Both the position numbers and the translations under genes were made by a program. A DNA stretch of 40,579 bases. It comes from Acidobacteriota bacterium. Its GTDB lineage: Bacteria; Acidobacteriota; Terriglobia; Acidiferrales; UBA7541. Positions 1-27,743 of this stretch are shown in pieces; position 1 is the stretch's first letter; each line of letters begins with the position of its first letter. Location: assembly GCA_003223255.1 (NCBI GenBank), contig QHYJ01000016.1, positions 63,319-103,897 of the forward strand, written 5' to 3'. The notes below the pieces were generated by a model. It did no database searches. It was not told where the DNA came from and saw nothing but the letters and a program-made list of their open reading frames with translations.

Positions 1-981
1 GATGAACCCGCTGATGTTCGCCTGGCCACCCATGGCCAGAACATCGCGCTGCACGTGGCCGTCAAGGCTGAGTCTCCCGGAAAGAGAGGTGACGCTTCCG
101 CCGACAGTTGCATCGCGGTCGATGTTGATGTCACCGCCGCAGGTCATCACGTTTCGCCCGACCTTGCCCTTGATGGTGATATTTCCTGCATAGCCGCGAA
201 TGCTTCCATCCACCTGCCCGGTCATACGGACTTGTCCCGACGCGGAAAGCATGTCTCCAAGAACATGGCCCGATACTTCCACGTCTCCGCCCGCCACCAG
301 CAAGTCGCCTTCGATGGTGCCGGCGATGCGAATTTGCCCGCCTGCGACATAGAGATCGCTGTGAATCACTTCGTCTTTCGCAATGGTTACGCGGTCTGCG
401 TGGCGCAGTTCCGTGGCCGACGTCTGCGCCGGCATCATCAGCGCCGTGCACAATCCCGCAAACACCAGAGCCAGTGCCGACCTGCGGCGGATGCGCCGCC
501 GCAGGAACATGACGCCCAACCCGCCCAGCGTCGCCAGTGCCAAAAATTCCAGTAGTGTGATCATGGATTGCCATCCTTTCCAGAAGGGGCTCTGGAAAAT
601 CAGCAGGCCCAGCAGGTTCGTTCCGCTGAAGCCCGCCTGCTCCAACTGTTGTTGCCAGGGATCAATGTATTGCGTATAAGGCGCGTACACACCGGTTGCC
701 GCCAATCCAAAAGCCAGTCCCCAAATCCATTGCATTGAGCGCCGCGCCGCTTCCTGAAACAGCGCCAGGCGCGACGGCAGCGGCTCGGTGTCTTCGAGCA
801 TTGCCCGCGTCAGCAGCCGCGTTTCGCGCTCCAGCGCGCGCAGCAGCGTGCGGCAGCTCTCGCATTCTTGCGTGTGCGCCGAAACTTCCAGCCCGCGCGC
901 GCGGTCGAGTTGCCGCTCGAGGTACAGCAGGCAGGTCATCTCGTCGAGATGCCTTATATTTTCTTCCCCGGTTTCGCTCAT
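1..981 (-). CDS. Zinc-finger anti-sigma factor fused to bactofilin-like polymer-forming domain (partial, C-terminus beyond left edge)
   Basis: One uninterrupted minus-strand frame of 327 codons runs from ATG at 981 off the left edge. Residues 1-60 form an anti-sigma zinc finger with the H-x3-C-x2-C signature (H36, C40, C43). Hydrophobic segments lie near 84-100, 141-160 and 169-186, and the arginine-rich stretch RRRIRRR at 161-167 suggests that side is cytoplasmic. From about residue 195 the sequence becomes a glycine- and valine-rich repeat typical of bactofilin/polymer-forming beta-helices (e.g. GTIEGDLLVAGGDVEVSGHV). Topology implies a cytoplasmic finger and an extracytoplasmic beta-helix. 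The start overlaps the stop of the sigma gene (ATGA), so the two are translationally coupled. Family knowledge: such membrane anti-sigma factors hold an ECF sigma inactive. The role of the beta-helix as a sensor or scaffold is inference. Confidence 0.85.
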   Translation of the reverse strand, partial: MSETGEENIRHLDEMTCLLYLERQLDRARGLEVSAHTQECESCRTLLRALERETRLLTRAMLEDTEPLPSRLALFQEAARRSMQWIWGLAFGLAATGVYAPYTQYIDPWQQQLEQAGFSGTNLLGLLIFQSPFWKGWQSMITLLEFLALATLGGLGVMFLRRRIRRRSALALVFAGLCTALMMPAQTSATELRHADRVTIAKDEVIHSDLYVAGGQIRIAGTIEGDLLVAGGDVEVSGHVLGDMLSASGQVRMTGQVDGSIRGYAGNITIKGKVGRNVMTCGGDINIDRDATVGGSVTSLSGRLSLDGHVQRDVLAMGGQANISGFI

Positions 982-1586
982 GAGGTCCCTCCTGCCGCCA
1001 GCGCCGCCTTGCCTTCGAGCGCCTGCCGCAGTTCATGCCGCGCGCGCAGCAGTACCACGCCCACGAAGGCGCGGCGCACCCCCAGCGCATCGGCAATTTC
1101 GTCGTAACTCATGTCCGAGTAATAGCGCATCACCAGCGCCATGCGCGCCCGCGCACGCATTTTTTCGAGCGCCTTGCGCACTTCCTCGCTGGAGCGCTCG
1201 TCGATCAATTTTTCCAATTGGCTTGGTTCGGGATGCTCCAGGGGCACGCTCTCCACGTCTTCGGTTTCTTTGTCTTGGCGGATTTTTCGCCGCCGCAGAA
1301 TATCCCAGCAGTGATTCGCAGCCACTTTGTACAGCCAGGCCTGGAACGACCGTGTCGGATCGTACTGGCTGAGCTTGCCTTTCAATTTCATGAAAATTTC
1401 CATGGTGGCGTCTTCGGCGTCCTCCCGCGTGGGCAGGGCACGCCTACAGAAGCGAAAGATCGCAGGAGCATATTGCCGGTAAAGCTCGCCCCAAGCGTCC
1501 GCGTCGCCCGCCCTGGCACGGGCAATCGCCTCCGTCGGCTCGGTTATTCCCGGCGCGCTCATCCGGCCTGGTCTCTGCGTTTCCAT
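978..1586 (-). CDS. ECF-type RNA polymerase sigma factor (sigma-70 family)
   Basis: 202 aa. Region 2 spans about residues 25-95 (DAEDATMEIFMKL, then FQAWLYKVAANHCWDILRRR), and region 4 about 130-190 with the helix-turn-helix MSYDEIADALGVRRAFVGVV. There is no region 1.1 or 3, as expected for ECF sigma factors, and the length is normal. It directs RNA polymerase to a specific promoter set when released by its anti-sigma factor, which is encoded immediately downstream with a 4-bp overlap. A GGAAC sequence, the usual ECF -35 core, lies upstream on the coding strand (forward positions 1645-1649), which would fit autoregulation. I could not identify a convincing -10, so that stays speculative. Product class is certain; the regulon is unknown. 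Confidence 0.93.
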   Translation of the reverse strand: METQRPGRMSAPGITEPTEAIARARAGDADAWGELYRQYAPAIFRFCRRALPTREDAEDATMEIFMKLKGKLSQYDPTRSFQAWLYKVAANHCWDILRRRKIRQDKETEDVESVPLEHPEPSQLEKLIDERSSEEVRKALEKMRARARMALVMRYYSDMSYDEIADALGVRRAFVGVVLLRARHELRQALEGKAALAAGGTS

Positions 1587-2155
1587 AGCCTAGTACGCAC
1601 AAAAGGCTGCAAATATTACAACTTGCAAACCGCTGCGATACCTTGTTCCTCTTCTAACCCGTTCATTTTGATTCGCTTACAGCCACATCCCCGGCTCGTC
1701 TCGCCCTTCCAGCAATATTACTGGTTCACCTCCACCCGCGAGGAACGCGCGCAGCGCTGCCTGGCGCAGGCAAGCGGCTCCCGCTGCTCCCCGCAAGGCG
1801 GGAAGACGCGGCCGCTTCTCCGGCAAGGTACGCCCTCTAACGGCGTGAGCTGGCCCCTGTTGGCCCCTTTTCGATTTTCCGATTTCGATGTTCTGCCTTG
1901 GCCGACGGCAAAGAGCAAAAGAAGAATCGAGGCGATGCCATACAACCGAGGTGCTTTCACGGTCCCGAAGGATAGCATATCCCTCCCCAGGACAATTCCT
2001 GTGTCGGCAGCCCGCAAACCATTGCCGGCCGGACGGCCTACACGCTTGATTCACCGAGCTACCGGAGACGTGGGTTCTTCCCGCACAGTGAGTTCCTCGC
2101 CGTGGTAGGCTTGTATTCTTGCGATTAAAGATTCCAGCCCGGGAAGAGGATGCTG
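1587..2155. other. Intergenic region with no supported gene
   Basis: This stretch lies upstream of both the minus-strand sigma factor and the plus-strand DUF6152 gene. It presumably carries promoters for both. Several overlapping open frames exist, the most protein-like being a 99-codon minus-strand frame (1718-2017) with one hydrophobic stretch, but none shows a recognisable family or a clear ribosome binding site. Confidence 0.5.
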
Positions 2156-2584
2156 ATGGTGAGGGGGGAGCGATGCATTCATCGCGCTTGGGCGGGGACA
2201 GGGTTGGCGTGCAAAGTGGCGGGCGCTGTGGTGCTGGCAGGAGTCTTGTTTGGCGCTCCTTCCCTGTGGGCGCACCATGGGCTGGCGCAGTTTGACACCA
2301 AGCATCCTCTGAAGCTGCAAGGGACGGTTACGCGTTTCCAGTGGATCAACCCGCATGCGTATATTTTTGCGGACGTCAAAGACGAGAAAGGTAAGCTCAC
2401 AAACTGGAAGCTCGAGTTGGGGAGTCTCGGGATGCTGACGCGGTTCGGCGGGTGGACGCGCGACACCTTGAAGCGCGGCGACCAGATCATCGTGGATGGC
2501 TTTCCGGCCAAAGACGGCTCGCCCTATATGTCATTGGCCACCGTGCAGCTTTCCAACGGCAAAATACTCTCGGCGGCTCCGTAG
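2156..2584 (+). CDS. Secreted DUF6152 family protein
   Basis: 142 aa from the ATG at 2156. A signal peptide is visible: basic start, then AGAVVLAGVLFGAPSLWA, with cleavage likely before HHG. The mature part carries the family pattern: AHHG near the mature N-terminus, KLQGTVTRFQWINPHAYIF, LELGS and GWTRDTLKRGDQIIVDG. I chose 2156 over the ATG at 2150 because GGAAGAGG at 2142-2149 sits 6 nt upstream of 2156 but touches 2150. The family is of unknown function, small, periplasmic and common in Acidobacteriota and Proteobacteria. The next gene begins 2 bp after this stop, so the two form an operon. Confidence 0.85.
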   Translation: MVRGERCIHRAWAGTGLACKVAGAVVLAGVLFGAPSLWAHHGLAQFDTKHPLKLQGTVTRFQWINPHAYIFADVKDEKGKLTNWKLELGSLGMLTRFGGWTRDTLKRGDQIIVDGFPAKDGSPYMSLATVQLSNGKILSAAP

Positions 2585-12578: not shown

Positions 12579-13946
12579 CTAGCAGAGCACGATTTTTTCG
12601 CGGTGGCGCAAGACGCGGCGCGTGGCGTTGCGCGTGTCAACAACCAGCTTCGCGTGGTCGACAATGGTCGCATAGTCGTAGCTCGAGTGGTCCGTGGCGA
12701 TCACCACGGCATCGTAGCTTGCGAGCGTTTGCGCGTTCAGAGGCACGGACTTCATGTTTTCGTAATTGTAGTGACGCATCTTGTGTAGTTGCGGGAAATA
12801 AGGATCGTTGTAATCGAGCGTCACGCCGCGCTGCTGGAAGAGCTGCATGATTTTGAGCGAGGGAGACTCACGCAAATCATCCACGTCTTTCTTGTAGGCA
12901 ACGCCCAGCAGCAGAATCCTTGAGCTTTTCATGCTTTTCTTGTGCTCGTTCAGAGCGTTGGCGGTGGCCTCGGCGACGTGGTAGGGCATGGCGGTATTCA
13001 CTTCACCGGCCAACTCGATAAAGCGAGTGGCGAAGTCGTACTCGCGAGCTTTCCAAGAAAGATAGAACGGATCCACCGGGATGCAATGGCCGCCGAGCCC
13101 CGGCCCCGGATAGAAGGGCATGAAGCCGAAAGGTTTCGTGGCCGCCGCGTCGATCACTTCCCAGATGTCGATGTTCATGCGCAAGCAGAGCTGTTTGAGC
13201 TCGTTGACGAGCGCGATGTTGACGCAGCGAAAGATGTTTTCCAAAAGCTTGGCCATTTCCGCGGAGCGCGTGGAGCTGACCGGAACGACGCGGCCCACCA
13301 CCTGGCTGTAGAGCGCCTGCGCGGCACGGCCACTAGGCGGATTCAATCCGCCGACGACCTTAGGGATTTGGGCCAGTCCGTATTGCTTGTTGCCCGGGTC
13401 TTCGCGCTCGGGGGAAAAAGCGAGGTAGAAATCGCAAACCACGTCCTCGTTTTCCTGGCCCGAGGCAATGGGGCAGCTCAAACCACTTCTCTCCAGAATG
13501 GGCAAGACGAGGTCTTCGGTCGTACCCGGATAGGTTGTCGACTCGAGGACAATCAACTGTCCTTTTTGCAGGTGCGGATAGATGGCGAGAGCGGTTTGCT
13601 CCACATAACTTAGATCCGGTTCGCGGCGCTCGTCGAGCGGAGTGGGCACGCAGATAAGGATGGCATCGGCTTCTTTCAGTTTTGCAAAATCGGTGGTGGC
13701 GCTGAAATGACGGCTGATGACGAACTGCTGGATCTTGTTTTGCGGGATATGCTGGATGTAAGAACGCCCGTTATTGAGCATCGCCACTTTTTCAGGATCG
13801 GTGTCGAATCCGGTGACCTTGTGACCCGCTTCGGCAAAGCGCAGGGCCAGGGGCAAGCCGACGTAACCGCAGCCAATGATTCCGACTTTGAGCTGGGCGC
13901 CCTTGAAAAATTCGGCTTTTCTTTCGATGGGCATGGGTTGAGTCAC
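12579..13946 (-). CDS. Nucleotide sugar dehydrogenase, WbpA/WecC type (probable UDP-N-acetylglucosamine 6-dehydrogenase)
   Basis: 455 aa. NAD-dependent four-electron oxidation of a UDP-hexose or UDP-HexNAc to the uronic acid. The Rossmann motif VGIIGCGYVGLPLA lies at about 22-35. The active-site segment is GPGLGGHCIPVDPFYL, whose Cys is the catalytic nucleophile. Other family blocks are CVPTPLDERREPDLSYV, ESTTYPGTTE, FSPEREDPGN and AYKKDVDDLRESPSLKI. FSPEREDPGN and HCIPVDP point to the WbpA/TviB-like (UDP-HexNAc) subgroup rather than UDP-glucose dehydrogenase. Start is GTG 13946, with AAGGA just upstream; ATG 13934 is an alternative. It is the first of two such enzymes in the locus and supplies uronic acid precursors for surface polysaccharide. 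Confidence 0.94.
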   Translation of the reverse strand: MTQPMPIERKAEFFKGAQLKVGIIGCGYVGLPLALRFAEAGHKVTGFDTDPEKVAMLNNGRSYIQHIPQNKIQQFVISRHFSATTDFAKLKEADAILICVPTPLDERREPDLSYVEQTALAIYPHLQKGQLIVLESTTYPGTTEDLVLPILERSGLSCPIASGQENEDVVCDFYLAFSPEREDPGNKQYGLAQIPKVVGGLNPPSGRAAQALYSQVVGRVVPVSSTRSAEMAKLLENIFRCVNIALVNELKQLCLRMNIDIWEVIDAAATKPFGFMPFYPGPGLGGHCIPVDPFYLSWKAREYDFATRFIELAGEVNTAMPYHVAEATANALNEHKKSMKSSRILLLGVAYKKDVDDLRESPSLKIMQLFQQRGVTLDYNDPYFPQLHKMRHYNYENMKSVPLNAQTLASYDAVVIATDHSSYDYATIVDHAKLVVDTRNATRRVLRHREKIVLC

Positions 13947-14244
13947 AGTCCTTGTAATCTGACCCCGAGCGGGCCGAAGCCAGGAAATTGTGTTTTCCGG
14001 GATACGCCTTCGCCCGCAACAGTGACACGCTCAGACGGGCGGACAAGTCGGCCAACACGTCAAAGGCAGGTAAATATATAACAGTTTCCTGGAAAACAGA
14101 AAAATCCTCTTCCCCGTCTAGCCAAGCTAGGGAGCTAGGGGGGCTTAATTCTCAAGGAGGTTGCCGCACGACACAGGACAGTGGAAGATAGGGACTGCCC
14201 GGCTTCTAAGTGCTTGACGATTTCTATGCCGCGCCGGGATCGCC
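13947..14244. other. Divergent intergenic region with tandem 8-bp repeat
   Basis: Lies between the minus-strand dehydrogenase and the plus-strand TauE half. An AT-rich patch (14072-14082) could hold a promoter. Two adjacent copies of AGCTAGGG occur at 14125-14140, followed by CTCAAGGAGG. Secondary structure is likely here, but I could not match it to a known riboswitch class. Confidence 0.4.
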
Positions 14245-14649
14245 ATGAGTTTGATCATCCTCGTGCTGGGACTCGGTGTTGGTGTGCTGGTAGGCCTATT
14301 GGGGATCGGCGGGGGAGCTGTGCTGGTGCCCGCAATGGTTTATCTGCTGGGCATGGACCAACACCTGGCGCAAGGCACTTCGCTTTTTATTTTGCTGCCG
14401 CCCATCGGCCTTGGCGCCCTGAGAGAGTATTGGAAAGAGGGTCAGGTCGATTTGCGGGCCGGAATTTTGTGCGCGCTGGGAATTCTGATTGGCGCGCTCG
14501 GAGGAAGTCTGGTCGCGCTGCCCATGCCATCCCGCAATCTGCAAGGGCTGTTCGGCTGCTTCCTCATGCTTTCGGCAATTCTGCTGTGGGGAAAGACGCG
14601 GCAGGAAGACCGGCCGTCTGCCATCGAACAAGAGGGCGTTCATGGCTGA
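14245..14649 (+). CDS. TauE/SafE family half-size membrane protein (first of pair)
   Basis: 134 aa with about four hydrophobic helices. The N-terminus carries the repeat motif of the TauE/SafE (TSUP) exporter family: GLGVGVLVGLLGIGGGAVLV then AQGTSLFILLPP. Full-length family members have two homologous halves of about 120 residues in one chain of about 250. Here each half is its own gene, and the next gene starts 8 bp before this stop. The predicted role is transport of an anion such as sulfite or an organic sulfonate, but substrates in this family vary greatly. Whether the two halves form a heterodimer is inference. Confidence 0.85.
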   Translation: MSLIILVLGLGVGVLVGLLGIGGGAVLVPAMVYLLGMDQHLAQGTSLFILLPPIGLGALREYWKEGQVDLRAGILCALGILIGALGGSLVALPMPSRNLQGLFGCFLMLSAILLWGKTRQEDRPSAIEQEGVHG

Positions 14650-15031
14650 GGGCACAAGGATGGGGCGGGACGCTGGAATTTTGATTGTCGCTGGCATCTG
14701 CGGAATCGCTTCAGGAATGTTTGGGATTGGTGGAGGAGTCCTATTGGTGCCCCTGCTGGGCTTGCTATTTTCTTTCACGCAGCACCGCGCGCAAGGCACA
14801 AGCCTGGTAGCGCTGATTCCGCCAACAGGGGCTCTGGCGCTGATGGCGTATGCGCGAGAAGGTTTTGTTTCCTGGAGAACGGGCTTTCTGTTGATTCCGG
14901 GAGTGTTCCTCGGGGGGATAGTGGGAGGAAGGCTGGCAGAGAAGCTGAAGCCCCGGCGGATGAGGCAAGTTTTTGCCGGGATTTTGTTTGCGCTGGGCAC
15001 ATGGCAGGCGTGCAGTGCATGGTGGAGATGA
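14642..15031 (+). CDS. TauE/SafE family half-size membrane protein (second of pair)
   Basis: 129 aa from ATG 14642, which overlaps the upstream stop by 8 bp and so suggests translational coupling. An open frame continues upstream to 14489, but that part lies out of frame across the first half gene. Motifs mirror those of the first half: GICGIASGMFGIGGGVLLV (16-34), then AQGTSLVALIPP, then a glycine-rich helix GVFLGGIVGGRLAEKL. Four hydrophobic helices are likely. With the first gene this makes up one complete TSUP transporter split in two. Confidence 0.85.
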   Translation: MAEGTRMGRDAGILIVAGICGIASGMFGIGGGVLLVPLLGLLFSFTQHRAQGTSLVALIPPTGALALMAYAREGFVSWRTGFLLIPGVFLGGIVGGRLAEKLKPRRMRQVFAGILFALGTWQACSAWWR

Positions 15032-15044
15032 AGTGCGAGCTCGC

Positions 15045-15830
15045 ATGGTCGATTTGCACTGTCACATCCTGCCGGGGCTCGATGACGGCCCCGACAGAAT
15101 GGAAGAATCGCTGGAAATGGCGGAAACGGCGATCGCCGATGGCTTAACCCACGTTGTCGCCACGCCACACTCCAACGAGAGGTTCTGGTTTGATTTTGCG
15201 CATGTGCGGCGCCTGCGCGATGAACTGCAAAACCGCATTGGCAACCGGCTCACGATGGCTACCGGGTGTGACTTTCACCTCAATCCGGAGAATCTGGCTC
15301 GCTTGCGCAAGCAGTCCCGGCAGTACTGCATCAATCAGCACGATTACTTGCTTTTGGAATTCAATGAAGTCTCCATCCCGCCGGCGGTGGATCGAACCTT
15401 GCACGAGTTGCAGCTTTCGGGATTGCGCCTGATCGTCACGCACCCGGAGCGGAACGCAATTCTGCGAAGGCATCCGGAGCGGCTCAGAGAATGGGTGAGG
15501 CGCGGCTGCTTTGCCCAACTGACCGCAGCGGCGCTCACGGGCGGTTTCGGGCCGACGGCGCAGCAGATTGGGCTGCAATGGATCGGCGAGGGCATAATTC
15601 ATTTCGTGGCCAGCGATGCGCACAATAACCGGACGCGGCCATTGCGGCTGCAGTCTGCTTATGACGTGGTGGCAATTCAGTTTGGGGAAGAGAAAGCGCG
15701 CGCACTGTTTCTGGACAATCCTCACGCGGCGTTCGAGGGCCGGGATTTGCCGCATGTACCAGAGGTCGAGGAACCGGTCGCCCCACGGCGGCGGAAACGA
15801 TGCTTGCAGCAGGCAAGCTGCCGCAGGTAG
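15045..15830 (+). CDS. CpsB/YwqE-like PHP-domain tyrosine phosphatase
   Basis: 261 aa from ATG 15045; a GTG at 15033 with GGAG upstream is an alternative and adds four residues. The PHP metal-binding motifs are intact: MVDLHCHILPGLDDGP (HxH at 5 and 7), HVVATPHSN, LIVTHPERN, and FVASDAHN. This is the pattern of the manganese-dependent phosphatases Wzb-type CpsB (Streptococcus) and YwqE (Bacillus), which dephosphorylate the bacterial tyrosine kinase that controls capsule chain length. No such kinase or Wzz chain-length regulator is present in the window, so the partner lies elsewhere. The basic, arginine-rich C-terminal tail is unusual and may be an extension. Confidence 0.88.
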   Translation: MVDLHCHILPGLDDGPDRMEESLEMAETAIADGLTHVVATPHSNERFWFDFAHVRRLRDELQNRIGNRLTMATGCDFHLNPENLARLRKQSRQYCINQHDYLLLEFNEVSIPPAVDRTLHELQLSGLRLIVTHPERNAILRRHPERLREWVRRGCFAQLTAAALTGGFGPTAQQIGLQWIGEGIIHFVASDAHNNRTRPLRLQSAYDVVAIQFGEEKARALFLDNPHAAFEGRDLPHVPEVEEPVAPRRRKRCLQQASCRR

Positions 15831-16007
15831 GCCTCCGCTCCGGCGAAGCGCGCCAAGCGCACGACTCGCGCCCCAGGTTGCGGAGACGGCAACCTAGGGT
15901 CGGGACGACAGATGGGGGGCCTTTAGCATGGGACAAAGCCCACGGCTTCGTGAAGTTCGGTAGGCTAGACAAACGTCCGAATTATCTGAGCGGAAAGACT
16001 TGCGATA

Positions 16008-16688
16008 TTAGCGGGTGCGCGTGACTGGCAAGCCCGCCCAGGCGTTTAGCAAGCCAAGAACCTCGCGTACCACATCAAGAGCATCCCTGGAATTGCGCCA
16101 CCAATGGCGAGGATCGAAAGGATCTTCGGGGGCGGCGCGCACCATGGCACGACATTCTCTCGGAGCGAGCTTTCGCCAAAGCAGTCGCACGCGCCGCGTA
16201 TGCGGCTTGCTCGTCACCAGGATGACGGAGCGGTCGTTCCTTTGTTCGAGCGCTGCACCGATCACCTTGACCTCATCGGCGGTATTTACGATGGGAGGCT
16301 CCAGGACGTGAATGGCCGCCGCGGGGACTCCTTCGTGAACCAAGACACGGGTGCTGTAAGCTTCTTCTCCTTCGAACGGAATCCCCATGGCTTTCAGAGA
16401 TTCTCCCGGCTCGGCAGAATGGGTGAGCCATACCTCCGGCGCATAACCCTGGCGATAGAGCTTGGCCGCTTCTAAAGCCCGCACGGGCATTCCTCCACTA
16501 AGCACGGCAATAGCGCGCGCTTTCGCTGCAGGATCTTCGACGACCAGCCAACGCCCGACGCCGAAAAATGTGGTAAGGGCGAGAACCGCAAGAGCGGAGA
16601 CTACGGCGACTGGAATGGTCCGGCGATGCCTCCGGGGCGGGACAACGGCAAATGAGTTCTCGACGGTAGTCATAAGAAACTCGCGCAT
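16008..16688 (-). CDS. YdcF/SanA/ElyC-like DUF218 domain protein
   Basis: 226 aa from ATG 16688; ATG 16673 is also possible. One membrane helix near the N-terminus ([19 protein letters not shown]) anchors a soluble DUF218 domain. Family signs are [26 protein letters not shown], the charged E-A-Y-S-T-R region, NTADEV, and [20 protein letters not shown]. The family member ElyC of E. coli affects polyprenyl-phosphate-dependent envelope assembly and SanA affects vancomycin exclusion. That fits its place among polysaccharide genes. It is divergent from the decarboxylase gene, with 76 bp between starts. Confidence 0.85.
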
Positions 16689-16764
16689 GCTATCCCGGGC
16701 CGACGCGATGGTCAAATTGCCGGGGCTCCGGTTAAACTGTCAGCTTGCATTTGAAGGAGGATGC

Positions 16765-17703
16765 ATGCGTGCCGTGGTCACCGGAGGGGCGGGGTTCCTG
16801 GGATCACATTTGTGCGACCGCTTGATAGGGGAAGGCTGGGATGTTTTGGCACTGGACAATCTGGTTACGGGAGTGGACGGCAATATCGCGCACCTGCTGA
16901 AGAATGCAAAGTTCCAGATGCTGCGGGCGGATGTATCTCAATACATTGACGTGCCCGGGCCGGTGGATTACGTGCTTCATTTTGCCTCGCCTGCGAGCCC
17001 CGTGGACTACCTCAAGATGCCCATTCCCACGTTGAAGGTTGGTGCGCTCGGGACACACAACGCCTTGGGGCTGGCACGGGCAAAAAATGCAAAATTCTTT
17101 CTCGCTTCGACCAGCGAATGCTACGGCGACCCGGAAATCTCTCCGCAGAACGAAGAATACTGGGGGCACGTGAATCCCATCGGCCCGCGCGGCGTTTACG
17201 ACGAGGCCAAGCGTTTCGCGGAAGCCATGACCATGGCGTATCACCGGTACCACAAGGTCGATACGCGCATTGTACGAATCTTTAATACCTACGGGCCGCG
17301 TATGCGCTTAAATGACGGCCGGGCACTGCCGAATTTCGTTTTTCAGGCGCTCAGTGGAATGCCGCTGACGGTTTATGGAGACGGGAAACAGACGCGGAGC
17401 TTTTGCTATGTCACCGACCTGATTGAGGGCATTTACCGGCTCATGATGTCCGAGGAGCACCTCCCGGTCAATATCGGCAATCCGCAGGAGATTACGCTTC
17501 TCGGCTTTGCCGAACGCATCCGGAAATTTTTCGACGATCCGCCGCCGATCGTCTTCAAACCGCTGCCACAAGATGATCCGAAGCGCCGCTGCCCGGACAT
17601 CGGCAGGGCCAAGCGCATCCTCAAGTGGGAGCCGAGGGTAGGACTGGACGAAGGGCTGAAGCTCACGCTGGCTTATTTCCAGGATGTGTTTAAGAAGAAT
17701 TAG
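16765..17703 (+). CDS. UDP-glucuronate decarboxylase (UDP-xylose synthase)
   Basis: 312 aa from ATG 16765 with GAAGGAGG four nt upstream; the open frame extends further 5' but that part overlaps the ydcF-like gene in antisense. Extended short-chain dehydrogenase fold: NAD motif [12 protein letters not shown] (7-18), [12 protein letters not shown], the [10 protein letters not shown] block, and the catalytic YxxxK as VYDEAKRF. The sequences [24 protein letters not shown] and [14 protein letters not shown] are typical of UXS rather than of dTDP-glucose dehydratase. It would convert UDP-glucuronate to UDP-xylose, using the product of the convergent UDP-glucose dehydrogenase gene 51 bp downstream. 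Confidence 0.92.
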
Positions 17704-17754
17704 AAACGTCAGACAAAGGCTCCGAGTCGTAAGGGAAACGCATAGGCGGGAAAG

Positions 17755-19104
17755 CTATTCCCTCCCGAAAGAACAATACTCGAAGCCCAGGTTCCGCATG
17801 TCTTTCGGGGAATAGAGATTTCTTCCGTCGATGACCAGCTTTCGCGCCATGAGGCTCCCTGCCCGCTTCCAGTCTAACTTGCGAAACGAATCCCATTCGG
17901 TGCAGATGAGCGCGGCATCCGCATCGCGCAACGCCTCATAAGGGTCTTCGTGGTACTGCAGTTGAGGAAACAAGGCCTTGGCTCGAGGCATGGCTTCCGG
18001 GTCCGTTGCGTGAATGAGGGCGCCTTCGTGGATAAGTCCTTTCACCACTTCGAGGGCCGGGGCAAAACGGATGTCGTCCGTATTGGCCTTAAACGCCAGT
18101 CCGAGCACGGCAATGCGCTTGCCTTTCACCACCCAAAGCGCCTGGTGAACTTTCTCGAAAAAGCGCTCAATGCGCTGTTTGTTAACGCGCTCGGCAGCCT
18201 TCAGGATGTCGAAATCAACGCCGACTTTGGCGGCGAGGTAAATGAAAGCTTGGACGTCTTTCGGAAAGCAGAAACCGCCGTAGCCCAATCCCGCTTTGAG
18301 AAACTGTCTGCCGATGCGAGGATCCAGCCCCATGGCTTGAGTGACTTCCTCGACGTCAGCGCCGATTTTCTCGCACAAATCCGAGATGACATTGGCATAG
18401 CTGATCTTGAGCGCCAAAAAGGAATTGGAGGCGTGCTTGATGAGCTCCGCGCTGTTGATGGTGGTAACCAGGAACTCGGCTTTTTGGCTCGGAGGGCAGG
18501 TGCCGTTATGCACCGGGCAGCGAAAACGCTTCTCCAGAATGGGCCGGTAGATTTCCCGAAGCTCCTCCGCCGAAGAAGGTTCTTCAACGCCGACGACGAT
18601 GCGGTCGGGGTGGAAAAAATCTCCAACCGCAGTTCCCTCGCGAAGAAATTCGGGGTTCGAGGCCACGCGGAATTTGATATTGCTGTTGCGGGAATAAGCC
18701 GAGAGCGCCCGGCGGAGTTCCAGACCCGTCCGTGCGGGAACCGTGCTCTTTTCGATCACCAGCTTGGGCGTCCGCGCCTCCGCAGCGACTTGCCGTGCCA
18801 CGTGGTCGATTGCGGAAAGGTCTGCCTCTCCCGATTCTTTAGGGGGAGTGCCCACGCAAATGAAGATAGCTTCTCCGGCGCGAATAGCTTCGCCAGCGTC
18901 TGCCGTGTAGGAGATGTGCCCCGCCTTGCGTGCGGAAGTCAGAATCTGTTCGAGATGTTCTTCATAAATGGGCACGCCACCGTCCTGGAGCTTAGCAATG
19001 CGGTCGCGATCAATGTCCGTGCAAACGACCTCGTGCCCCGCCTCGGCCAAGCAGGCTCCGGTGACGAGTCCGACGTATCCACATCCAATGACAGAGAGAC
19101 GCAA
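17755..19104 (-). CDS. ugd: UDP-glucose 6-dehydrogenase
   Basis: 449 aa. Converts UDP-glucose to UDP-glucuronate with two NAD. The N-terminal Rossmann motif is VIGCGYVGLVTGACLAEAGH (5-24). Family blocks follow: FICVGTPPKESGEADLS, IEKSTVPARTG, ASNPEFLREGTAVGDF, and the active-site segment GYGGFCFPKDVQAF with the catalytic Cys. LGLAFKANTDDIRFAPAL is the C-terminal UDP-binding region. This is the TuaD/UGD subgroup, unlike the WbpA-type enzyme at 12579. It feeds the decarboxylase encoded convergently and may supply glucuronate for the polymer. Confidence 0.96.
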   Translation of the reverse strand: MRLSVIGCGYVGLVTGACLAEAGHEVVCTDIDRDRIAKLQDGGVPIYEEHLEQILTSARKAGHISYTADAGEAIRAGEAIFICVGTPPKESGEADLSAIDHVARQVAAEARTPKLVIEKSTVPARTGLELRRALSAYSRNSNIKFRVASNPEFLREGTAVGDFFHPDRIVVGVEEPSSAEELREIYRPILEKRFRCPVHNGTCPPSQKAEFLVTTINSAELIKHASNSFLALKISYANVISDLCEKIGADVEEVTQAMGLDPRIGRQFLKAGLGYGGFCFPKDVQAFIYLAAKVGVDFDILKAAERVNKQRIERFFEKVHQALWVVKGKRIAVLGLAFKANTDDIRFAPALEVVKGLIHEGALIHATDPEAMPRAKALFPQLQYHEDPYEALRDADAALICTEWDSFRKLDWKRAGSLMARKLVIDGRNLYSPKDMRNLGFEYCSFGRE

Positions 19105-19257
19105 AAGACCTCCTTGTGCCGGAGCCTAACAGGCAATACCCCTCGTGCTTCGGAATCCGAGTTGTATTGTGACCGAAGTAAGAGAAAGAAAAAAGCTGTT
19201 CGCTGGCTTCTCTTGGGCAAACCACAAAAAGTTGAGAGGAAGAGCCAAAGCATATAC

Positions 19258-20448
19258 TCAGTTCTTGAAGCCCCTCCCCATCAGCAGCCCACGCAATCCC
19301 AGCAGCAAGAGGCGCGGCTGGCGGCGGACCAGGTTCCAAAGCAAGCGCGTGGACTCGTCGCGATGAATTTCTCCGAGCGATTCCCGCGCGGAAACGTCCA
19401 GCAAGTCAACAAGCTGTGAATAATCTTTTTGTTGAAAATGATGCAGGGCGCGGCGGATCATCCAGTGCGTGGCCAGCTCGCGCCGCAACTCCACGAGTTC
19501 CCTGTTTGCGCCTTTCTTTAAGAGCGCCTTGGCAACGGCGAGCGCGCCGCGGAAACCGGTGACGATGCCGCCGACCGTCGATACCTTTACTTGCGCCGCG
19601 GCATCCCCTACCAGATAGACCTCGCCATTTGCGATTTGCCGCCTCACCGGAACCCATCCGCGGTAGACCGGAATGCGCGCGCCCTGCCATTCGAGGGGCA
19701 CCAGTCTTTTCTTCTCCAGAAACTTTTCGAAGCAGCGTTTGGTGTCGCGGCCGTGCTCGCCGATGACGCCGAGAGCGCCGCGCTCTGCGGATTCGGGAAT
19801 CAGCCAATAGAAGTAAGGCGTGTCGTCCGGAATAAACCACACGCGCGTTGTGTCAGGAGGACAGTCCTTCGGGAGGCGAACGATGGCTTGCACGAGCGGC
19901 ACGGTCTCGACCGGTGGCCAACCCGCCGCGCGGGCTACGCGGCTTGCTGCGCCGTCTGCACCGACAACGCTATCAGCGTGCAGCTCTTCACGCTTGCCGC
20001 CCGTTTCGGTCTCCAGGCGCAAGCCCTGTTCGTTCGGCCCCACTCCTAAGAAACGGGTATCAAAGGAGAGCGAAACTCCCGCATGCTGCGCTTCTCGAGC
20101 AAGAGCGGTGATCAGCCGCGAGCGCTCGATAATCAGGTCCGGCTTCCTTAGCGCAATTTGCGCCGAGCGACCGTCGGTAAACAGTTCAAAGCGGCGAATC
20201 TCGTTGACGATGCTCTTCTCCGCCACCGCGGCCATCTGGCTGCGGAAATGATCGGTAACGATCAGCGTGCGTGATGCCGGCTCCAACTGCGGCTTGGACT
20301 CCAGCACACGAACGGGCCGCCCGCCCCCAGCCACGCGCGCGGCGGTGAAGAGTCCCGCGGCCGAAGCTCCCACAACGATGATTTCCCGTGGTCTGCCGCT
20401 GCTTCCTGGCTGAGCTCTGTTTTCTTCCACCGTCTTGTACGTTCCCAA
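19258..20448 (-). CDS. FAD-dependent oxidoreductase, geranylgeranyl reductase-like
   Basis: 396 aa. The dinucleotide-binding motif is IIVVGASAAGLFTAARVA at about 24-41, with Ser/Ala replacing the usual glycines in part (GASAAG for GxGxxG). The motif DSVVGADGAASRVARAAG is the DG region of the p-hydroxybenzoate hydroxylase fold, and VYLVGDAAAQVKVSTVGGIV is the GD motif. The order and spacing match GGR-type reductases, which act on isoprenoid chains, but halogenases and other group A flavoproteins share it. The start is uncertain: a TTG at 20448 or a GTG at 20430, since no ATG lies in frame after the upstream stop. In a polysaccharide locus it might act on the polyprenyl carrier, which is inference. 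Confidence 0.85.
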   Translation of the reverse strand: MGTYKTVEENRAQPGSSGRPREIIVVGASAAGLFTAARVAGGGRPVRVLESKPQLEPASRTLIVTDHFRSQMAAVAEKSIVNEIRRFELFTDGRSAQIALRKPDLIIERSRLITALAREAQHAGVSLSFDTRFLGVGPNEQGLRLETETGGKREELHADSVVGADGAASRVARAAGWPPVETVPLVQAIVRLPKDCPPDTTRVWFIPDDTPYFYWLIPESAERGALGVIGEHGRDTKRCFEKFLEKKRLVPLEWQGARIPVYRGWVPVRRQIANGEVYLVGDAAAQVKVSTVGGIVTGFRGALAVAKALLKKGANRELVELRRELATHWMIRRALHHFQQKDYSQLVDLLDVSARESLGEIHRDESTRLLWNLVRRQPRLLLLGLRGLLMGRGFKN

Positions 20449-20655
20449 TGGTGCGCCGTCTCTCTACGCGCGCTCGAGAGAACTCACGCAAAAGATTGAA
20501 TCTGCTTTCCGCCCGATCCGTGCGGGACCTCAAGGAAATGGATGGGACGGGCGGTGTAAGTATACAGAAAGGTTCTTCACCCGCAAAGAAAACGCGACTG
20601 CAAAAAAAGACGAGCCTAGACTTAGGATCGGTTCGAGGAACGAGCTCCATGAAAT

Positions 20656-21708
20656 TCAAGAAGCGCGAGAGGCGGTGCGCTCCTGGCGCTCGTAGGGAGC
20701 GCGCTCCAAATACGCGACCCCGAGCAAAATAAGGGCGAGTACCAGAATTCCAAGAAGCAACGCGCCTCGCGTGGAAAGGTAGCTGACCAACAAAGCCGCA
20801 CTGCCGCCGGTGGCGCCGAGGAAGTACAGTGTGACGACCGCTCCGCGATGCCCAAGCCCGAGATTCGACAAGCGGTGGGCGGCGTGGTCTTTGCCCGGTG
20901 TGGTGAAGGGCAGCAAGCCCCGGCGGACACGGGAGATGGTTACCAGCGTGGTATCAAAAATCGTTACAGCCAGGATCAATACCGGCGCGAGCCAGGCCGA
21001 TAGGTACGATGCATTCTCAAAGCGCAATTTCAGACCTAACGTAGCCATCAAGAATCCCAGAAACATGGCGCCGCCATCGCCCATGAAAATCTTGGCCGGC
21101 TTGAAGTTCCAGCGCAAAAATCCCGTAGCCGCTCCGAGAACCGCCGCCGCAAGGATGGTAACCAACATCTGCCCGTTCAGGTAGGCAAGGAGTGAAAAAA
21201 ACACGGAAGACATCGCGGCTACGCCCGCGCACAACCCGTCCATGTGATCGAGAATGCTGAACGAAGCGGTTATGCCCACGACCCAAAAGACGGTCAGCAC
21301 GGCGTCCAGAAGATCGCCGGAGCGGCCTCCCAGGAGGGTGCTAAAGACCTGGGCGCGAATTCCAGTTACGAGCAGGATTCCGGCGGCCAGCGGCATGCCG
21401 ACGAATAGTTTCACCTGGTGATGGAGCAAGCCGCGGTCATCGAGGATGCCCACGGCCGCCACCAGCGTCGCACCAATCAAAATCCCCGCAATTTGCGCCC
21501 GGGCGGGTCCATGAAACGCCAGCAAGACGGCAATCACGACAGCAGCGTACATGGCCAACCCGCCTAATAGCGGAATCGGCGCGTGATGCACTTTTCGCGG
21601 CCCGGGCAGATCTACCATGCCTAGACGCAGCGCGAATGCGCGCACCGGCACCACCAACATCATGGAAGCAAACAAAGCGATGAAGAAAGCCAGCAGGCCT
21701 GCGGCCAT
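20656..21708 (-). CDS. MraY/WecA-like polyprenyl-phosphate glycosyl-1-phosphate transferase
   Basis: 350 aa with about ten membrane helices. The enzyme family transfers sugar 1-phosphate from a UDP-sugar to undecaprenyl phosphate, the first membrane step of many cell-surface glycans. Landmarks: HHAPIPLLGGLAMYAA near the N-terminus, VGILDDRG (the DD pair), ILDHMDGLCAG, FKPAKIFMGDGGAMFLGF, and HRLSNLGLGHRGAV. One oddity: where family members have NAFN before the D-x2-DG segment, this protein has ASFS, so both asparagines are replaced. Stop and next gene are 207 bp apart. Probably the priming transferase of this locus. Confidence 0.9.
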   Translation of the reverse strand: MAAGLLAFFIALFASMMLVVPVRAFALRLGMVDLPGPRKVHHAPIPLLGGLAMYAAVVIAVLLAFHGPARAQIAGILIGATLVAAVGILDDRGLLHHQVKLFVGMPLAAGILLVTGIRAQVFSTLLGGRSGDLLDAVLTVFWVVGITASFSILDHMDGLCAGVAAMSSVFFSLLAYLNGQMLVTILAAAVLGAATGFLRWNFKPAKIFMGDGGAMFLGFLMATLGLKLRFENASYLSAWLAPVLILAVTIFDTTLVTISRVRRGLLPFTTPGKDHAAHRLSNLGLGHRGAVVTLYFLGATGGSAALLVSYLSTRGALLLGILVLALILLGVAYLERAPYERQERTASRAS

Positions 21709-21890
21709 GCAACCTCATTTCATCCGGAGAGCAGGATCCGCCAGGGCTCGTGTGGCCGGAAGCTCCGGTGATGCTTACGGGTTTCGCGTTCCGGCTCCCA
21801 CGTCAAGATTTAAAGTTAAAGATGGTTGCCCTCACACCGCGCAAACACGATACTGCGATTTTAGTTGCCCGGCAATCCCGATCGTGTTGG
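21709..21890. other. Intergenic spacer inside the polysaccharide locus
   Basis: About 180 bp separates the priming transferase from the upstream glycosyltransferase, both on the minus strand. It is relatively AT-rich at 21808-21832 and may carry a separate promoter. No gene seen. Confidence 0.4.
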
Positions 21891-23102
21891 TTATGGCCAA
21901 TCAGTTTCGAATAGGTGAAAGAGTTCCAGATACTTGTGAAGTTCCAGCACTCGATCATAGGAAGGCGCGGCAGTGCGCGCGGCCTGTCCCATGGATTGCA
22001 ATTTCTTCAGGTCCGCCATTAAACCGCGGACGACGGCGACGAGTTCCGCGGGTTTGTCCGGGTCGGCAGCTACGCCAAAGCCCTGCTTTGCGCCAAGCGA
22101 CACCACGTCCGTTTCCTTCGGAGCCACCGCGATGATCGGTTCTCCCGCTGCGAGGATTCCATACATTTTGCTCGGTACCACCACGCCTTCCAGGCCGCGC
22201 TTGATCGTGACGATGTGCGCATCGGCGGCCACCAGCACGGATGAGATTTTTTTGGAAGGGAAATAATCAAGAAAACGTATGTTGTCAGCGCCTGCTGCGG
22301 CCGCTTCCACCGCCGACCGCTGCGCGCCACTGCCGACGAAAACCAATCCGACTCCTTCTTTGGAGAGCCTGCGCGCTGCCGTCACGAGCGTATTCCACGC
22401 ACCGGAAAAACCTAGGTTTCCCGCATGCAACAAAACAAAGGAAAAGTTGCCGCGGATCGCACGGACCACTTCGGGATCGGGAGTAGGCGGTGACTTCTCT
22501 GGAGGAAGAATCTCGACGCCGTCGCGAATCACCACCACTCGCGCCGGCTCGACTCCTTTTGCGATGATCCGGGCGCGCATGTCTTCGCCAAGAACAATGA
22601 CGCGTTCGGCGCGCCGTAGCGCCCAGCGATGGAGTCTTTCCCATAGGCGCGCGAGCTGGCCGGCGCTTACAATGTTGCCCCCGACCGCCATGTCTGGATA
22701 CAGGTCGCGGATGTTGTACACGTACGGTTTTCGCTTCAGCAGGGCAACGAGCGCTCCCACGATTCCCTGAAACGGCGGGTCGGTCATGGCCAGCACAACA
22801 TCGCAATCGAGGAATAAGGCGCGCGGAACGGCCAGCCAAACATAGCTCAGGTAATTCAGCAGGCGCTTCTTCATGTTGAAGCGCGGAAACGCTGTCGATC
22901 CGGCGCGAATGATTCGAACCAAGTCGACATTTTCTGTTTGATAGAGCCGCCAGGGAAGTCGCTCACGCGGGTCGTACGATGGCCGTCCGCAAAGCACAGT
23001 GACGCGGTGATGAATACAAACCGTGTCCACCACGGTCTGAGCCATTTTCGCGGTCGCCGAAGTGTCCGGCGGATAGTAGAGATTTAGCAGCAGGATCTTC
23101 AT
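21891..23102 (-). CDS. Glycosyltransferase family 4 (WbuB-like)
   Basis: 403 aa, GT-B fold. The N-terminal domain begins MKILLLNLYYPPDTSATAKM, as in WbuB/WcaI-like enzymes, and includes YNIRDLYPDMAV. The C-terminal donor-binding domain shows LLHAGNLGFSGAWNTLVTAA, FVGSGAQRSAVE, IRFLDYFPSKKI and VVVPSKMYGILAAGEPIIAV. The usual E-x7-E is reduced, as is common in this subgroup. It transfers a sugar from an activated donor to a growing chain on the cytoplasmic side. It is the last gene of the minus-strand run that begins near 30059; 28 bp separate it from the carbamoyltransferase gene. Confidence 0.92.
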   Translation of the reverse strand: MKILLLNLYYPPDTSATAKMAQTVVDTVCIHHRVTVLCGRPSYDPRERLPWRLYQTENVDLVRIIRAGSTAFPRFNMKKRLLNYLSYVWLAVPRALFLDCDVVLAMTDPPFQGIVGALVALLKRKPYVYNIRDLYPDMAVGGNIVSAGQLARLWERLHRWALRRAERVIVLGEDMRARIIAKGVEPARVVVIRDGVEILPPEKSPPTPDPEVVRAIRGNFSFVLLHAGNLGFSGAWNTLVTAARRLSKEGVGLVFVGSGAQRSAVEAAAAGADNIRFLDYFPSKKISSVLVAADAHIVTIKRGLEGVVVPSKMYGILAAGEPIIAVAPKETDVVSLGAKQGFGVAADPDKPAELVAVVRGLMADLKKLQSMGQAARTAAPSYDRVLELHKYLELFHLFETDWP

Positions 23103-23130
23103 GGAGGTGCAGGTTGTGCGATGTTATTCA

Positions 23131-24876
<1,746 letters not shown>

Positions 24877-24909
24877 CGAATGATTTGCCAGTGTACCTCA
24901 GCCGGGGGG

Positions 24910-26868
24910 TTATGCGGCGAGATGTCGGCGGCACCATTCGTTCAGCACGTACAAAGACCACGGCCGGGACCAGGTGGTTTTCCCCGCGAGGAAATCGTTC
25001 CAAACCCCTTGCATTCCTCCGGGCCGCAGCGCCGGCGCAAGACGCGGGGCTGGATTTGCAAAACTTGTCTCCAATCTTTTTTTCAGCGAGCCGCGCAGCC
25101 ATACTTCCCACGGCAGCGTAAAAGTACGTTTCCTTTGAGCGAGAATCTCTTGTGGCAGCAAGTCCCGGATTGCTTCTACGAGAAGCGCCTTGTGCACGCC
25201 CGGCCGGCGCCGCGCCGCGTCGGGCAGAGCGCACACAAATTCAGCCAGCGGCGTATCCAGCAGAGGCACGCGAACTTCCAGTGATTGCGCCATGCTGACG
25301 GAATCTGCGTCGCGCAGCAGCGTGCTCGCCATGTAATTGCGCGTCTCCAACCAGGAAATTCCTCCGATCGGCTCCATCTTGCGCGCTTCATCGGCGGCTC
25401 TTTGCAGCCATCCAAGCCACGTCGGTTCGAGCGTCACGCCGTCGGGGCCGACGGTGCTAGGCCGGAATCGCGGCTTGATAAGTTTTTCTAATCTTCCCGG
25501 CGGGAAAAGAGCCCGCGCGAAAAAATAGGGATGAGGCAGCACGTCGGGAGAAACCCATGCTGCCGCCGCTTTGCTTCCAGCGTCCGGCGAACCGCGCTTC
25601 CCGGCGAGCGCCGCCACAAGCGGTTCCGTCAATCTTCTTGCTACTGCCGGCACGAACCAGGAGGTGCGAATAAACCTTGATAGTCGCGGCGTATCCGCAA
25701 ACGTCGGATAGCCCGCGAAAAGCTCATCGCCGCCCAAGCCGGAGAGGGCTACTTTCAGTCCCACTTTTCGGGCAGCCCACGATACAAAGTAGGTATTCAC
25801 GGCGTCCATCGTGGGCTGGTCCAGTGCGCTGATCGCTTCATCGATGCGCTCAACGATGGCCCTGCCATCGAGCGGCACTTCCGTATGCTTGGTTCCGCAG
25901 TGCTTCGCAATAACTCCGGCCGCTTTTGCCTCGTCGAAGTCCGTCCGCGGAAATGTCAACGTGAAGGTTTGAATTCCCGCCTGAGCTTTCGCGGCCAACG
26001 CGGCAATCGCTCCCGAGTCCAGCCCACTCGAAAGAAACAGCCCCACCGGCACGTCCGCAATCAAGTGCGCCTTCACCGCGTCTTCGAGCATCGGCCGTAA
26101 CTTTTTCGCCGCGGAAACAAGGTCGCGCGGCTTTCGCGTGTCTCGGGCCGCAGGGGAAACCGCTAGGTCCCACCATTGGCGCGCCCGGGGCACGCGCCGG
26201 CGCTCGGGAACATGCAGAAGCATGCGGTGTCCTGGAGGCAGGCTGAACACACCTTCGACCAGCGTTACCGGCTCGCTCACGCTGCCAAAGAGCAGATACG
26301 AGGTCAGCGCGTCCCGCGACAGGTTTTTTGGAGCAGCCCCTGCTGCAAGCAGCGCCCGCACTTCCGAAGCGAAGGCAAAGCCATACGGCGTTTGCGTGTA
26401 ATAGAGCGGCTTGATCCCCAGTGGATCGCGCGCCAGAAAGAGAAGCGGCGCCGTCGCATAGCGCTCGCGCAAATCGAGCAACGCAAACGCAAACATCCCG
26501 CGCAGTTCGTTAAGCGCATCTTCTCCCCACTCTTCCCACGCGTGTACGAGAACTTCCGTGTCGGATTGCGTGGTAAAGCGGTGCCCGCAAAGGATCAAGC
26601 GTTCGCGCAACTCGCGGTAGCCGTAGAGTTCGCCGTTGAAGACCACGGCGACGTCCTTGGTTTCATTCCAGATGGGTTGATGGCCTCCGGCGAGGTCGAT
26701 GATGCTCAGCCGGCGCATCCCTAAGGCGAGTCCCGGAGCGCGCGGTTCGCTCAAGAGGAATCCCTCTTCATCCGGGCCACGGTGCCGCAGCGCTGCGGTC
26801 ATGGTCCGCACTCGCGCTTCCGCCTCCGTATTGCGCGAGGTGAAGGCGACTCCGCAGATCCCGCACAC
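24910..26868 (-). CDS. Glutamine-hydrolysing asparagine synthase-like amidotransferase
   Basis: 652 aa if GTG 26868 is the start. The N-terminal class II glutaminase needs Cys directly after the initiator Met, and this GTG gives MCGICGVAF, whereas the longer open frame would bury the Cys behind about 20 residues that overlap the upstream gene. Further motifs: RHRGPDEEG, RRLSIIDLAGGHQP, VFNGELYG, SDTEVLVHAWEEWG. The synthetase half has the PP-loop FLSSGLDSGAIAALA and LSGLGGDELFAGYP. The upstream stop codon ends 1 bp before. Relatives in O-antigen loci (WbpS) turn uronic acids into uronamides, which would fit the two dehydrogenases here. That use is inference; free asparagine synthesis is the alternative. 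Confidence 0.93.
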   Translation of the reverse strand: MCGICGVAFTSRNTEAEARVRTMTAALRHRGPDEEGFLLSEPRAPGLALGMRRLSIIDLAGGHQPIWNETKDVAVVFNGELYGYRELRERLILCGHRFTTQSDTEVLVHAWEEWGEDALNELRGMFAFALLDLRERYATAPLLFLARDPLGIKPLYYTQTPYGFAFASEVRALLAAGAAPKNLSRDALTSYLLFGSVSEPVTLVEGVFSLPPGHRMLLHVPERRRVPRARQWWDLAVSPAARDTRKPRDLVSAAKKLRPMLEDAVKAHLIADVPVGLFLSSGLDSGAIAALAAKAQAGIQTFTLTFPRTDFDEAKAAGVIAKHCGTKHTEVPLDGRAIVERIDEAISALDQPTMDAVNTYFVSWAARKVGLKVALSGLGGDELFAGYPTFADTPRLSRFIRTSWFVPAVARRLTEPLVAALAGKRGSPDAGSKAAAAWVSPDVLPHPYFFARALFPPGRLEKLIKPRFRPSTVGPDGVTLEPTWLGWLQRAADEARKMEPIGGISWLETRNYMASTLLRDADSVSMAQSLEVRVPLLDTPLAEFVCALPDAARRRPGVHKALLVEAIRDLLPQEILAQRKRTFTLPWEVWLRGSLKKRLETSFANPAPRLAPALRPGGMQGVWNDFLAGKTTWSRPWSLYVLNEWCRRHLAA

Positions 26869-26869
26869 G

Positions 26870-27736: not shown

Positions 27737-27743
27737 TGGAAGC

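Follow-up and report, generated by a model that had tools for sequence, protein, structure and literature searches.

A bactofilin-like β-helix fused to a predicted membrane anti-sigma factor beside an ECF sigma factor gene in Acidobacteriota

An ECF sigma factor gene of an Acidobacteriota genome adjoins an anti-sigma factor gene that carries a bactofilin-like β-helix in the same reading frame, and we think it reasonably likely that the two encode a self-regulated ECF sigma/membrane anti-sigma pair that reports on the cell envelope and controls a small regulon including a Yip1 protein. The genes lie at one end of the stretch of 40,579 nucleotides that was analysed (G000:C62:63319-103897 in genome coordinates; ‘the window’ in short), and their features are collected in Table 1. 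The system belongs to the known ECF/anti-sigma kind, and the bactofilin-like rod on the anti-sigma factor is what is new: among the matches listed from the open-access literature, no published description was found in which an anti-sigma factor and a bactofilin-like protein are fused or share an operon. As judged from sequence, the arrangement suggests that a soil bacterium uses a structural protein to read the state of its envelope. If a bactofilin-type rod outside the membrane is indeed joined to a transcription switch, it would provide a concrete case where gene control may follow a structural state and not a small molecule. Given its split-to-fused history, its conserved promoter motif and its predicted target gene, the circuit can be tested directly, and this in a phylum described as hard to culture (PMC3174227).

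Table 1. Coordinates of the features discussed in the text (window positions unless a locus is given)
Feature	Position	Strand	Basis or remark
Motif of an ECF-type promoter, TGTAATATTT-N11-TGCGTA, ending 7 nt ahead of the ATG of the sigma gene	1594..1620	(-)	motif kept in relatives
ECF sigma factor gene, 202 aa	978..1586	(-)	Sigma70_r2 and Sigma70_r4_2 above Pfam cut-offs; TIGR02937
ATGA overlap, sigma stop/anti-sigma start	978..981	(-)	4 bp
Fused anti-sigma factor gene, N-terminal 327 aa	1..981	(-)	continues beyond the window
Zinc-finger anti-sigma domain, residues 11-62, H36/C40/C43	796..951	(-)	zf-HC2 and invariant residues
TM1, weak hydrophobic segment, residues 83-103	673..735	(-)	mean hydropathy 0.9 over 48 relatives
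TM2, residues 141-159	505..561	(-)	hydropathy
Basic loop RRRIRRRS, site of the putative fusion junction	481..504	(-)	K+R content; K/R tails of unfused anti-sigma factors
TM3, resembling a signal peptide; last residues T-S-A (mostly A-x-A in the relatives)	415..480	(-)	fixed small -3/-1 pair
β-helix part, residues 190-327; domain to about 375 in relatives	1..414	(-)	Bactofilin match and relatives’ models
DUF4382-like gene, example in L006	L006:6519-8453	(+)	convergent with anti-sigma gene
DUF4382-like gene, example in L077	L077:7918-9549	(-)	convergent with anti-sigma gene

The sigma factor gene was readily recognized by Sigma70_r2 (E 4.1e-14), Sigma70_r4_2 (E 9.6e-11) and the NCBIfam model TIGR02937 (E 2.9e-33). 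To find fused relatives, a species-wide genome collection was scanned with two peptide patterns taken from close relatives, which yielded 54 fused loci. The anti-sigma gene adjoins the ECF sigma gene both here and in the relatives, as is typical of class I anti-sigma factors, and of 54 fused loci read together with a neighbouring sigma gene, 47 have the 4-bp overlap if the start codon is placed as close to such an overlap as possible. The overlapping gene pair proposed in the initial annotation thus held up. In a comparison of 55 neighbourhoods, many of which end at contig ends, the sigma gene was common to 54 loci and the anti-sigma gene to all 55, and no other gene shared as widely was found among them. 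A DUF4382-like gene (E 1.3e-4, 22.7 bits, under the cut-off of 25) lies convergently on the other strand downstream of the anti-sigma gene in 29/55 loci, own genome included, and is regarded as a neighbour. On its other side, the sigma gene is adjoined by a gene for a DUF6152 protein that points away from it (window 2150-2584). Further along, window 12579-29210 holds genes that by eye resemble those of polysaccharide synthesis, including nucleotide-sugar dehydrogenases, glycosyltransferases, and asparagine-synthase-like and carbamoyltransferase-like genes.

The N-terminal domain of the fused protein has several features of a class I anti-sigma factor. In the window copy the Pfam zf-HC2 model scored 16.8 bits (E 0.0077), below its cut-off of 22.2; among four fused relatives scanned, L056 (26.4) and L062 (33.5) passed, and L009 (14.9) and L036 (18.9) did not. 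Alignment established that the Hx3Cx2C residues (H36, C40 and C43) are invariant in 44/44 relatives and in 24/24 of a more diverse set. The 44 rows represent 44 of the 54 loci from the species-wide scan; L081, L084, L109, L114, L120, L124 and L126-L129 were omitted as near-duplicates, as partial, or for a stop within the stretch. A model of a relative placed N-terminal helices at 14-21, 27-39 and 41-62, in line with the helical domain of class I factors, and a family profile weakly matched RsiW (E 0.012) and ChrR (E 0.037-0.04) in the PDB. With the sigma gene adjoining, these residues substantiate the HxxxCxxC anti-sigma architecture that had been noticed from the letters of the window. Like RsiW and ChrR, the protein combines an N-terminal Hx3Cx2C domain with an adjoining, overlapping ECF sigma gene, and it has a membrane anchor, ChrR itself being soluble; it differs from them by the bactofilin-like β-helix and by its membrane segments, of which eight are predicted in relatives. 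A survey of class I factors (PMC7406223) does not use the word ‘bactofilin’ in its main text.

The anti-sigma gene runs off the edge of the window. In the contig it continues up to a stretch of 198 N, behind which the same kind of protein resumes with the last part of a C-terminal membrane domain (L006:8652-9119), out of frame with the anti-sigma gene at the nominal gap length. In relatives the two halves form one ORF with 80 residues between them, and 66 codons fit the N run; the run is therefore best read as an assembly gap of inexact length, across which the gene of the own genome is probably continuous. The end of the helix and TM4 would fall into this gap, with TM5-TM8 beyond it. The whole protein in relatives has ~560 residues, ~230 more than the window part, and consists of the finger, TM1, TM2, the basic loop, TM3, the β-helix and TM4-TM8. 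The visible part of the C-terminal domain had no significant match in Pfam or NCBIfam; conservation in the 44-relative alignment runs on through the helix and this domain.

The repeat region of the window protein matched the Pfam Bactofilin family (PF04519) with E 2.5e-5 and 24.9 bits, just below the cut-off of 27.9. None of the five fused proteins scanned passed this cut-off (20.8-27.7 bits), and five of eight unfused relatives did, with up to 43.1 bits. The fold itself was modelled with confidence by AlphaFold2 for the helix of a close relative alone (pLDDT 96.6, pTM 0.90). In the model of a relative’s full protein the helix had a pLDDT of about 90 or more; the arrangement of the domains was left unpredicted because of the low pTM (0.42) and the low pLDDT around TM1-TM3. 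Foldseek aligned the helix-alone model with the Thermus bactofilin 6rib (probability 1.00, TM 0.78 by target, 2.5 Å, 106 columns), and 6rib was a match at probability 1.00 in both searches, with weak E values (0.23, and 0.11 for the helix alone). This match gives the modelled domain the right-handed β-helix core of bactofilins. VIA-align superposed 96 residues on 6rib at 1.7 Å (Z 11.1) and gave a longer alignment with HxuA 4i84 (173 residues, 2.4 Å, Z 17.6); 6rib was absent from the 50 rows of the comparison that gave HxuA. Bactofilin is preferred as the relative of the helix because BacA and RsiW match the two halves of the protein independently by profile, Caulobacter BacA (2n3d) with E 2.5e-5. 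A left-handed helix of the LpxD/GlmU type was ruled out, with an rmsd of about 11 Å compared with 2.3-2.8 Å for HxuA, HMW1 and hemopexin-binding protein, which we take to be right-handed helices. The bactofilin-type β-helix of the initial annotation thus finds backing in a confident model and in two known structures. The coils of about 17 residues are shared with BacA and 6rib. Bactofilins are cytoplasmic filament proteins, whereas the fused helix is predicted to be extracytoplasmic, is longer, is flanked by membrane segments and, in the five fused proteins scanned, stays below the PF04519 cut-off.

Three hydrophobic segments had been proposed ahead of the repeats. Two are clear by hydropathy in the window copy (141-159 and 169-187); the first (about 83-103) falls below the threshold here, and its counterpart in the relative’s model is a helix at 70-102 with low pLDDT. 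The loop between TM2 and TM3 is strongly basic, with a mean of 4.18 K+R and zero D/E in 44 relatives, compared with 0.00 and 0.02 K+R in the TM5-TM6 and TM7-TM8 loops; the linker at 370-386, predicted to be outside, has 3.39 K+R and is of no help to the topology model. At the end of TM3, a single fixed column pair has one of A, V, G, S or T at -3 and A or G at -1 in 44/44 relatives (A at -3 in 39, A at -1 in 43), so that the motif of a signal-peptidase-type site stands at the membrane before the putative sensor. The best column pair of any other segment reaches at most 29/44, and A-x-A is kept by the fused TM3 in 56 of 69 rows. A crude signal-peptidase rule was dropped as evidence because TM5 passes it as often as TM3 (43/44 each), which leaves the conservation at fixed columns as the informative observation on this site. 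Unfused helix proteins begin, by eye, with signal-peptide-like segments.

The gene fusion was established in many relatives. The window protein was matched at E 1e-3 in 71 of 101 genomes (own included), in many over the full length and in some over just one part, finger or helix. A family profile was further applied to 396 genomes drawn from the phylum, with at most the top three candidates scored per genome; 117 matched at 1e-8, many of them over the helix or finger part alone. The named relatives are nearly all Acidobacteriota, including Candidatus Acidiferrum typicum and ‘gp2’ isolates, and the fused form is present in Acidoferrales and other Acidobacteriota; one of the 54 loci from the species-wide scan, titled Betaproteobacteria (L094), is suspected to be a mislabelled bin. 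Since the single ORF recurs next to an ECF sigma gene in so many genomes, the fused gene of the window is beyond chance.

Local HMMs for the finger, middle, helix, C-terminal domain and sigma factor were also run on 51 loci. Sigma, finger and helix were separate neighbouring genes in L071, L212, L213, L228, L246, L248 and L250, with L228 and L246 alike and matched only partly over the helix. L251, also labelled split, has sigma and helix genes with a membrane gene between them that had no finger score. Fusions were seen in L229-L231 and in L065, which ends at a contig end, and in the remaining loci either a helix gene had no sigma gene close by, or the sigma and finger genes lacked a helix gene. 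Where complete, the anti-sigma factors of the split operons that were read end after TM2 with a K/R-rich tail. One genome (G088) has both a fused-form match (C100) and a separate split sigma/finger/helix operon (C22, L071).

A maximum-likelihood tree of the helix and C-terminal domain (73 rows, midpoint root) was built after thinning close fused relatives and removing rows without a C-terminal match, which left six of the eight split-labelled loci and dropped L228 and L246. The 34 fused rows formed one clade (100/97; 200/200 bootstrap trees), whose sister was the split pair L212+L213 (98/94). Far from these, the remaining four split rows grouped with one unfused row (100/99), and the split rows are therefore not one group (3 changes). 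A single fusion is the simplest history by parsimony, and a later fission in L212/L213 costs one more step. Most likely, to judge from this tree, the fusion arose once, from a three-gene operon with a separate exported β-helix protein. Because the fused clade is sister to split operons whose helix protein starts with a signal-peptide-like segment, TM3 is most simply a former signal peptide, and the helix behind it should therefore be extracytoplasmic. We strongly infer a topology with a cytoplasmic finger, TM1 and TM2, a third segment derived from a signal peptide, the helix outside, TM4-TM8 and the C-terminus inside. Placing the helix in the cytoplasm was rejected, by prediction, on the signal-peptide-like starts of the unfused relatives, the charges and the ancestry in the tree. 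Of two outcomes that would have spoken against the initial annotation, a repeat region without a β-helix and one inside the cell, neither emerged from prediction, and its extracytoplasmic helix agrees with the proposed topology.

In the reading that we favour, the finger domain would keep the sigma factor at the membrane in an inactive state until something changes at the extracytoplasmic rod or at the membrane domain of the rod. This change could be the binding of an envelope partner, the assembly of the rod or a cut behind TM3, and would free the sigma factor by a conformational, an assembly-dependent or a cleavage route. Counting against this are the scores of the window copy under the Pfam cut-offs for both zf-HC2 and Bactofilin, and the break of the gene by the assembly gap. 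Cleavage after TM3 has a precedent in RsiP and RsiV. In both, a single membrane segment precedes the cleavage site, and RsiV is cut by the same signal-peptidase route as RsiP. The fused protein shares with them a conserved signal-peptidase-type site, here as a motif, by the membrane and before an extracytoplasmic domain; it differs in having three membrane segments before the site and another sensor domain. For RsiP, signal peptidase has been described as the site-1 protease (PMC8844934).

The site after TM3 could also be cut constitutively. Signal peptidase would then always turn a polyprotein into a three-segment anti-sigma factor and a separate exported β-helix membrane protein, the fusion would serve only to couple the production of the two, and no direct sensing by the rod would be required. 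The site at one fixed column pair in every aligned relative and the existence of split operons, of which L212 and L213 are the sister of the fused clade, speak for this; we nevertheless hold it to be rather unlikely. A single ORF has been kept across a large clade, as one would expect if the physical link is important; an internal segment that follows two others is not necessarily accepted by signal peptidase; the crude cleavage rule does not set TM3 apart from TM5; and the window copy has T rather than A at -3. Release of the sigma factor according to the assembly state of the β-helix, polymer or monomer, was the model of the initial annotation. It suits a bactofilin-type helix predicted to lie outside the membrane, but both polymerisation and a partner would have to be presumed. 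An uncut rod would moreover be tied to the membrane at both ends, which would constrain end-to-end assembly of the bactofilin type unless TM3 is cut, and we rate this model as unlikely.

Cleavage and assembly might be combined if the internal former signal peptide were the trigger. The AxA-type site would be shielded while the rod is engaged or assembled, and a disturbance would allow signal peptidase to cut, freeing the end of the rod to polymerise and starting the loss of the anti-sigma factor. This version is quite unlikely in our estimate; if true, the cell would sense the structural integrity of its envelope via a cytoskeleton-family domain outside the membrane. Least probable of these readings is that the helix and the C-terminal membrane domain sense nothing and give the anti-sigma factor a rigid platform or act as its chaperone, and that the signal enters elsewhere, for instance as redox at the zinc finger. 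The invariant finger and its weak similarity to the models of ChrR (E 0.0074) and RsrA (E 0.071) are compatible with such a role; against it, several relatives have Leu in place of the first Cys (position 17), conservation extends over the helix and C-terminal domain, and split operons keep the same domains as neighbours.

The favoured reading, a sigma factor freed by a change at the rod, further holds that the free sigma factor would transcribe its own operon, in positive autoregulation, and a small regulon including a Yip1-family membrane protein. A conserved motif, TG[TA]AA..TT - TGCGTA, was established directly before the sigma start codon in relatives, and its closeness to the start codon implies that the transcript may be leaderless. 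The GCGTA anchor stands close to the sigma start in 49/54 loci; of the other five, L102, L104 and L112 have ACGTA, and L106 and L116 are without the anchor in the stretch read. A loose form of the motif, fixed after the sequences had been seen, was tested on 33 chosen sigma loci and 30 Yip1 loci, and was found before 31 of the sigma genes and 24 of the Yip1 genes, with at most 1 in single-base shuffles of either set. A pattern from the sigma promoters matched 44 times across 28 of the 36 genomes from the genus, compared with 4 times for its reversed control, and the 44 matches lay before the sigma gene (22), before the Yip1 gene (11) and elsewhere (11). Six of the last were read: they precede a PadR gene (own genome), an M48 peptidase, two MacA-like adaptors and a RecO-like gene (by eye), and in one case no ORF of 60 residues started nearby. 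The PadR gene of the own genome, with an ECF-type motif at L131:1501-1526(-) (G000:C36:17109-17134), is followed by a permease-like gene (by eye).

Yip1 matches occur in 67 of 101 genomes, with E 1.9e-12 for the gene of the own genome, and the gene is followed by a tgt-like gene (by eye). With a matrix trained on sigma promoters, 21 of the 30 Yip1 loci exceeded all 200 single-base shuffles of their own sequence, and the motif was found before 0/29 of the DUF4382-like neighbour genes taken as control. In the own genome, TGWWANNTT-N13-RCGTA matches twice only, before sigma and before Yip1; as the pattern was widened with both sites already known and the reversed control matches 4 times, this count indicates the absence of other such sites and not an enrichment. 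The sigma and Yip1 promoters of G020 and G035 have the same unusual TGATA form, which fits the expectation for a single sigma factor that reads both; G001 and G004 depart from this trend. A single -35 base distinguishes the two promoters in most genomes (TGTAA for sigma, TGAAA for Yip1). A different ECF factor with similar specificity could read the Yip1 promoter. The Yip1 motif is also present in G015 and G021, where no close sigma gene was found (63% and 77% complete), and in G016, whose distant sigma copy is without the motif. These Yip1 motifs, the TGTAA/TGAAA difference, the lack of enrichment in the own-genome count and the four split operons outside the sister group all count against the main reading. 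The Yip1 match in G011 (L187, G011:C154) has a TGA stop with an intact promoter motif, either a sequencing error or decay.

Promoters of the sigma-W type have a CGTA-type -10, as does the motif described here. Control of a Yip1-family protein by an ECF factor, here predicted from the promoter motif, is shared with the sigma-W regulon of B. subtilis (yknWXYZ); it differs in that the Yip1 gene is here followed by a tgt-like gene and not by a transporter. In B. subtilis, yknW lies in a core sigma-W operon (PMC3498285) and YknW is a Yip1 family protein (PMC4887032). The likeness is a loosely resembling one, and neither orthology of the sigma factors nor membership is claimed.

A palindrome around AGCAATATTGCT was observed upstream of the promoter, at window 1709-1724, and in close relatives it lies 133-160 nt upstream of sigma. 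When 53 upstream regions were compared, 11 had a perfect copy of its 10-base core, GCAATATTGC, and 16 had the core with at most one mismatch (shuffles: mean 0.48), which may reflect shared ancestry or a regulator site.
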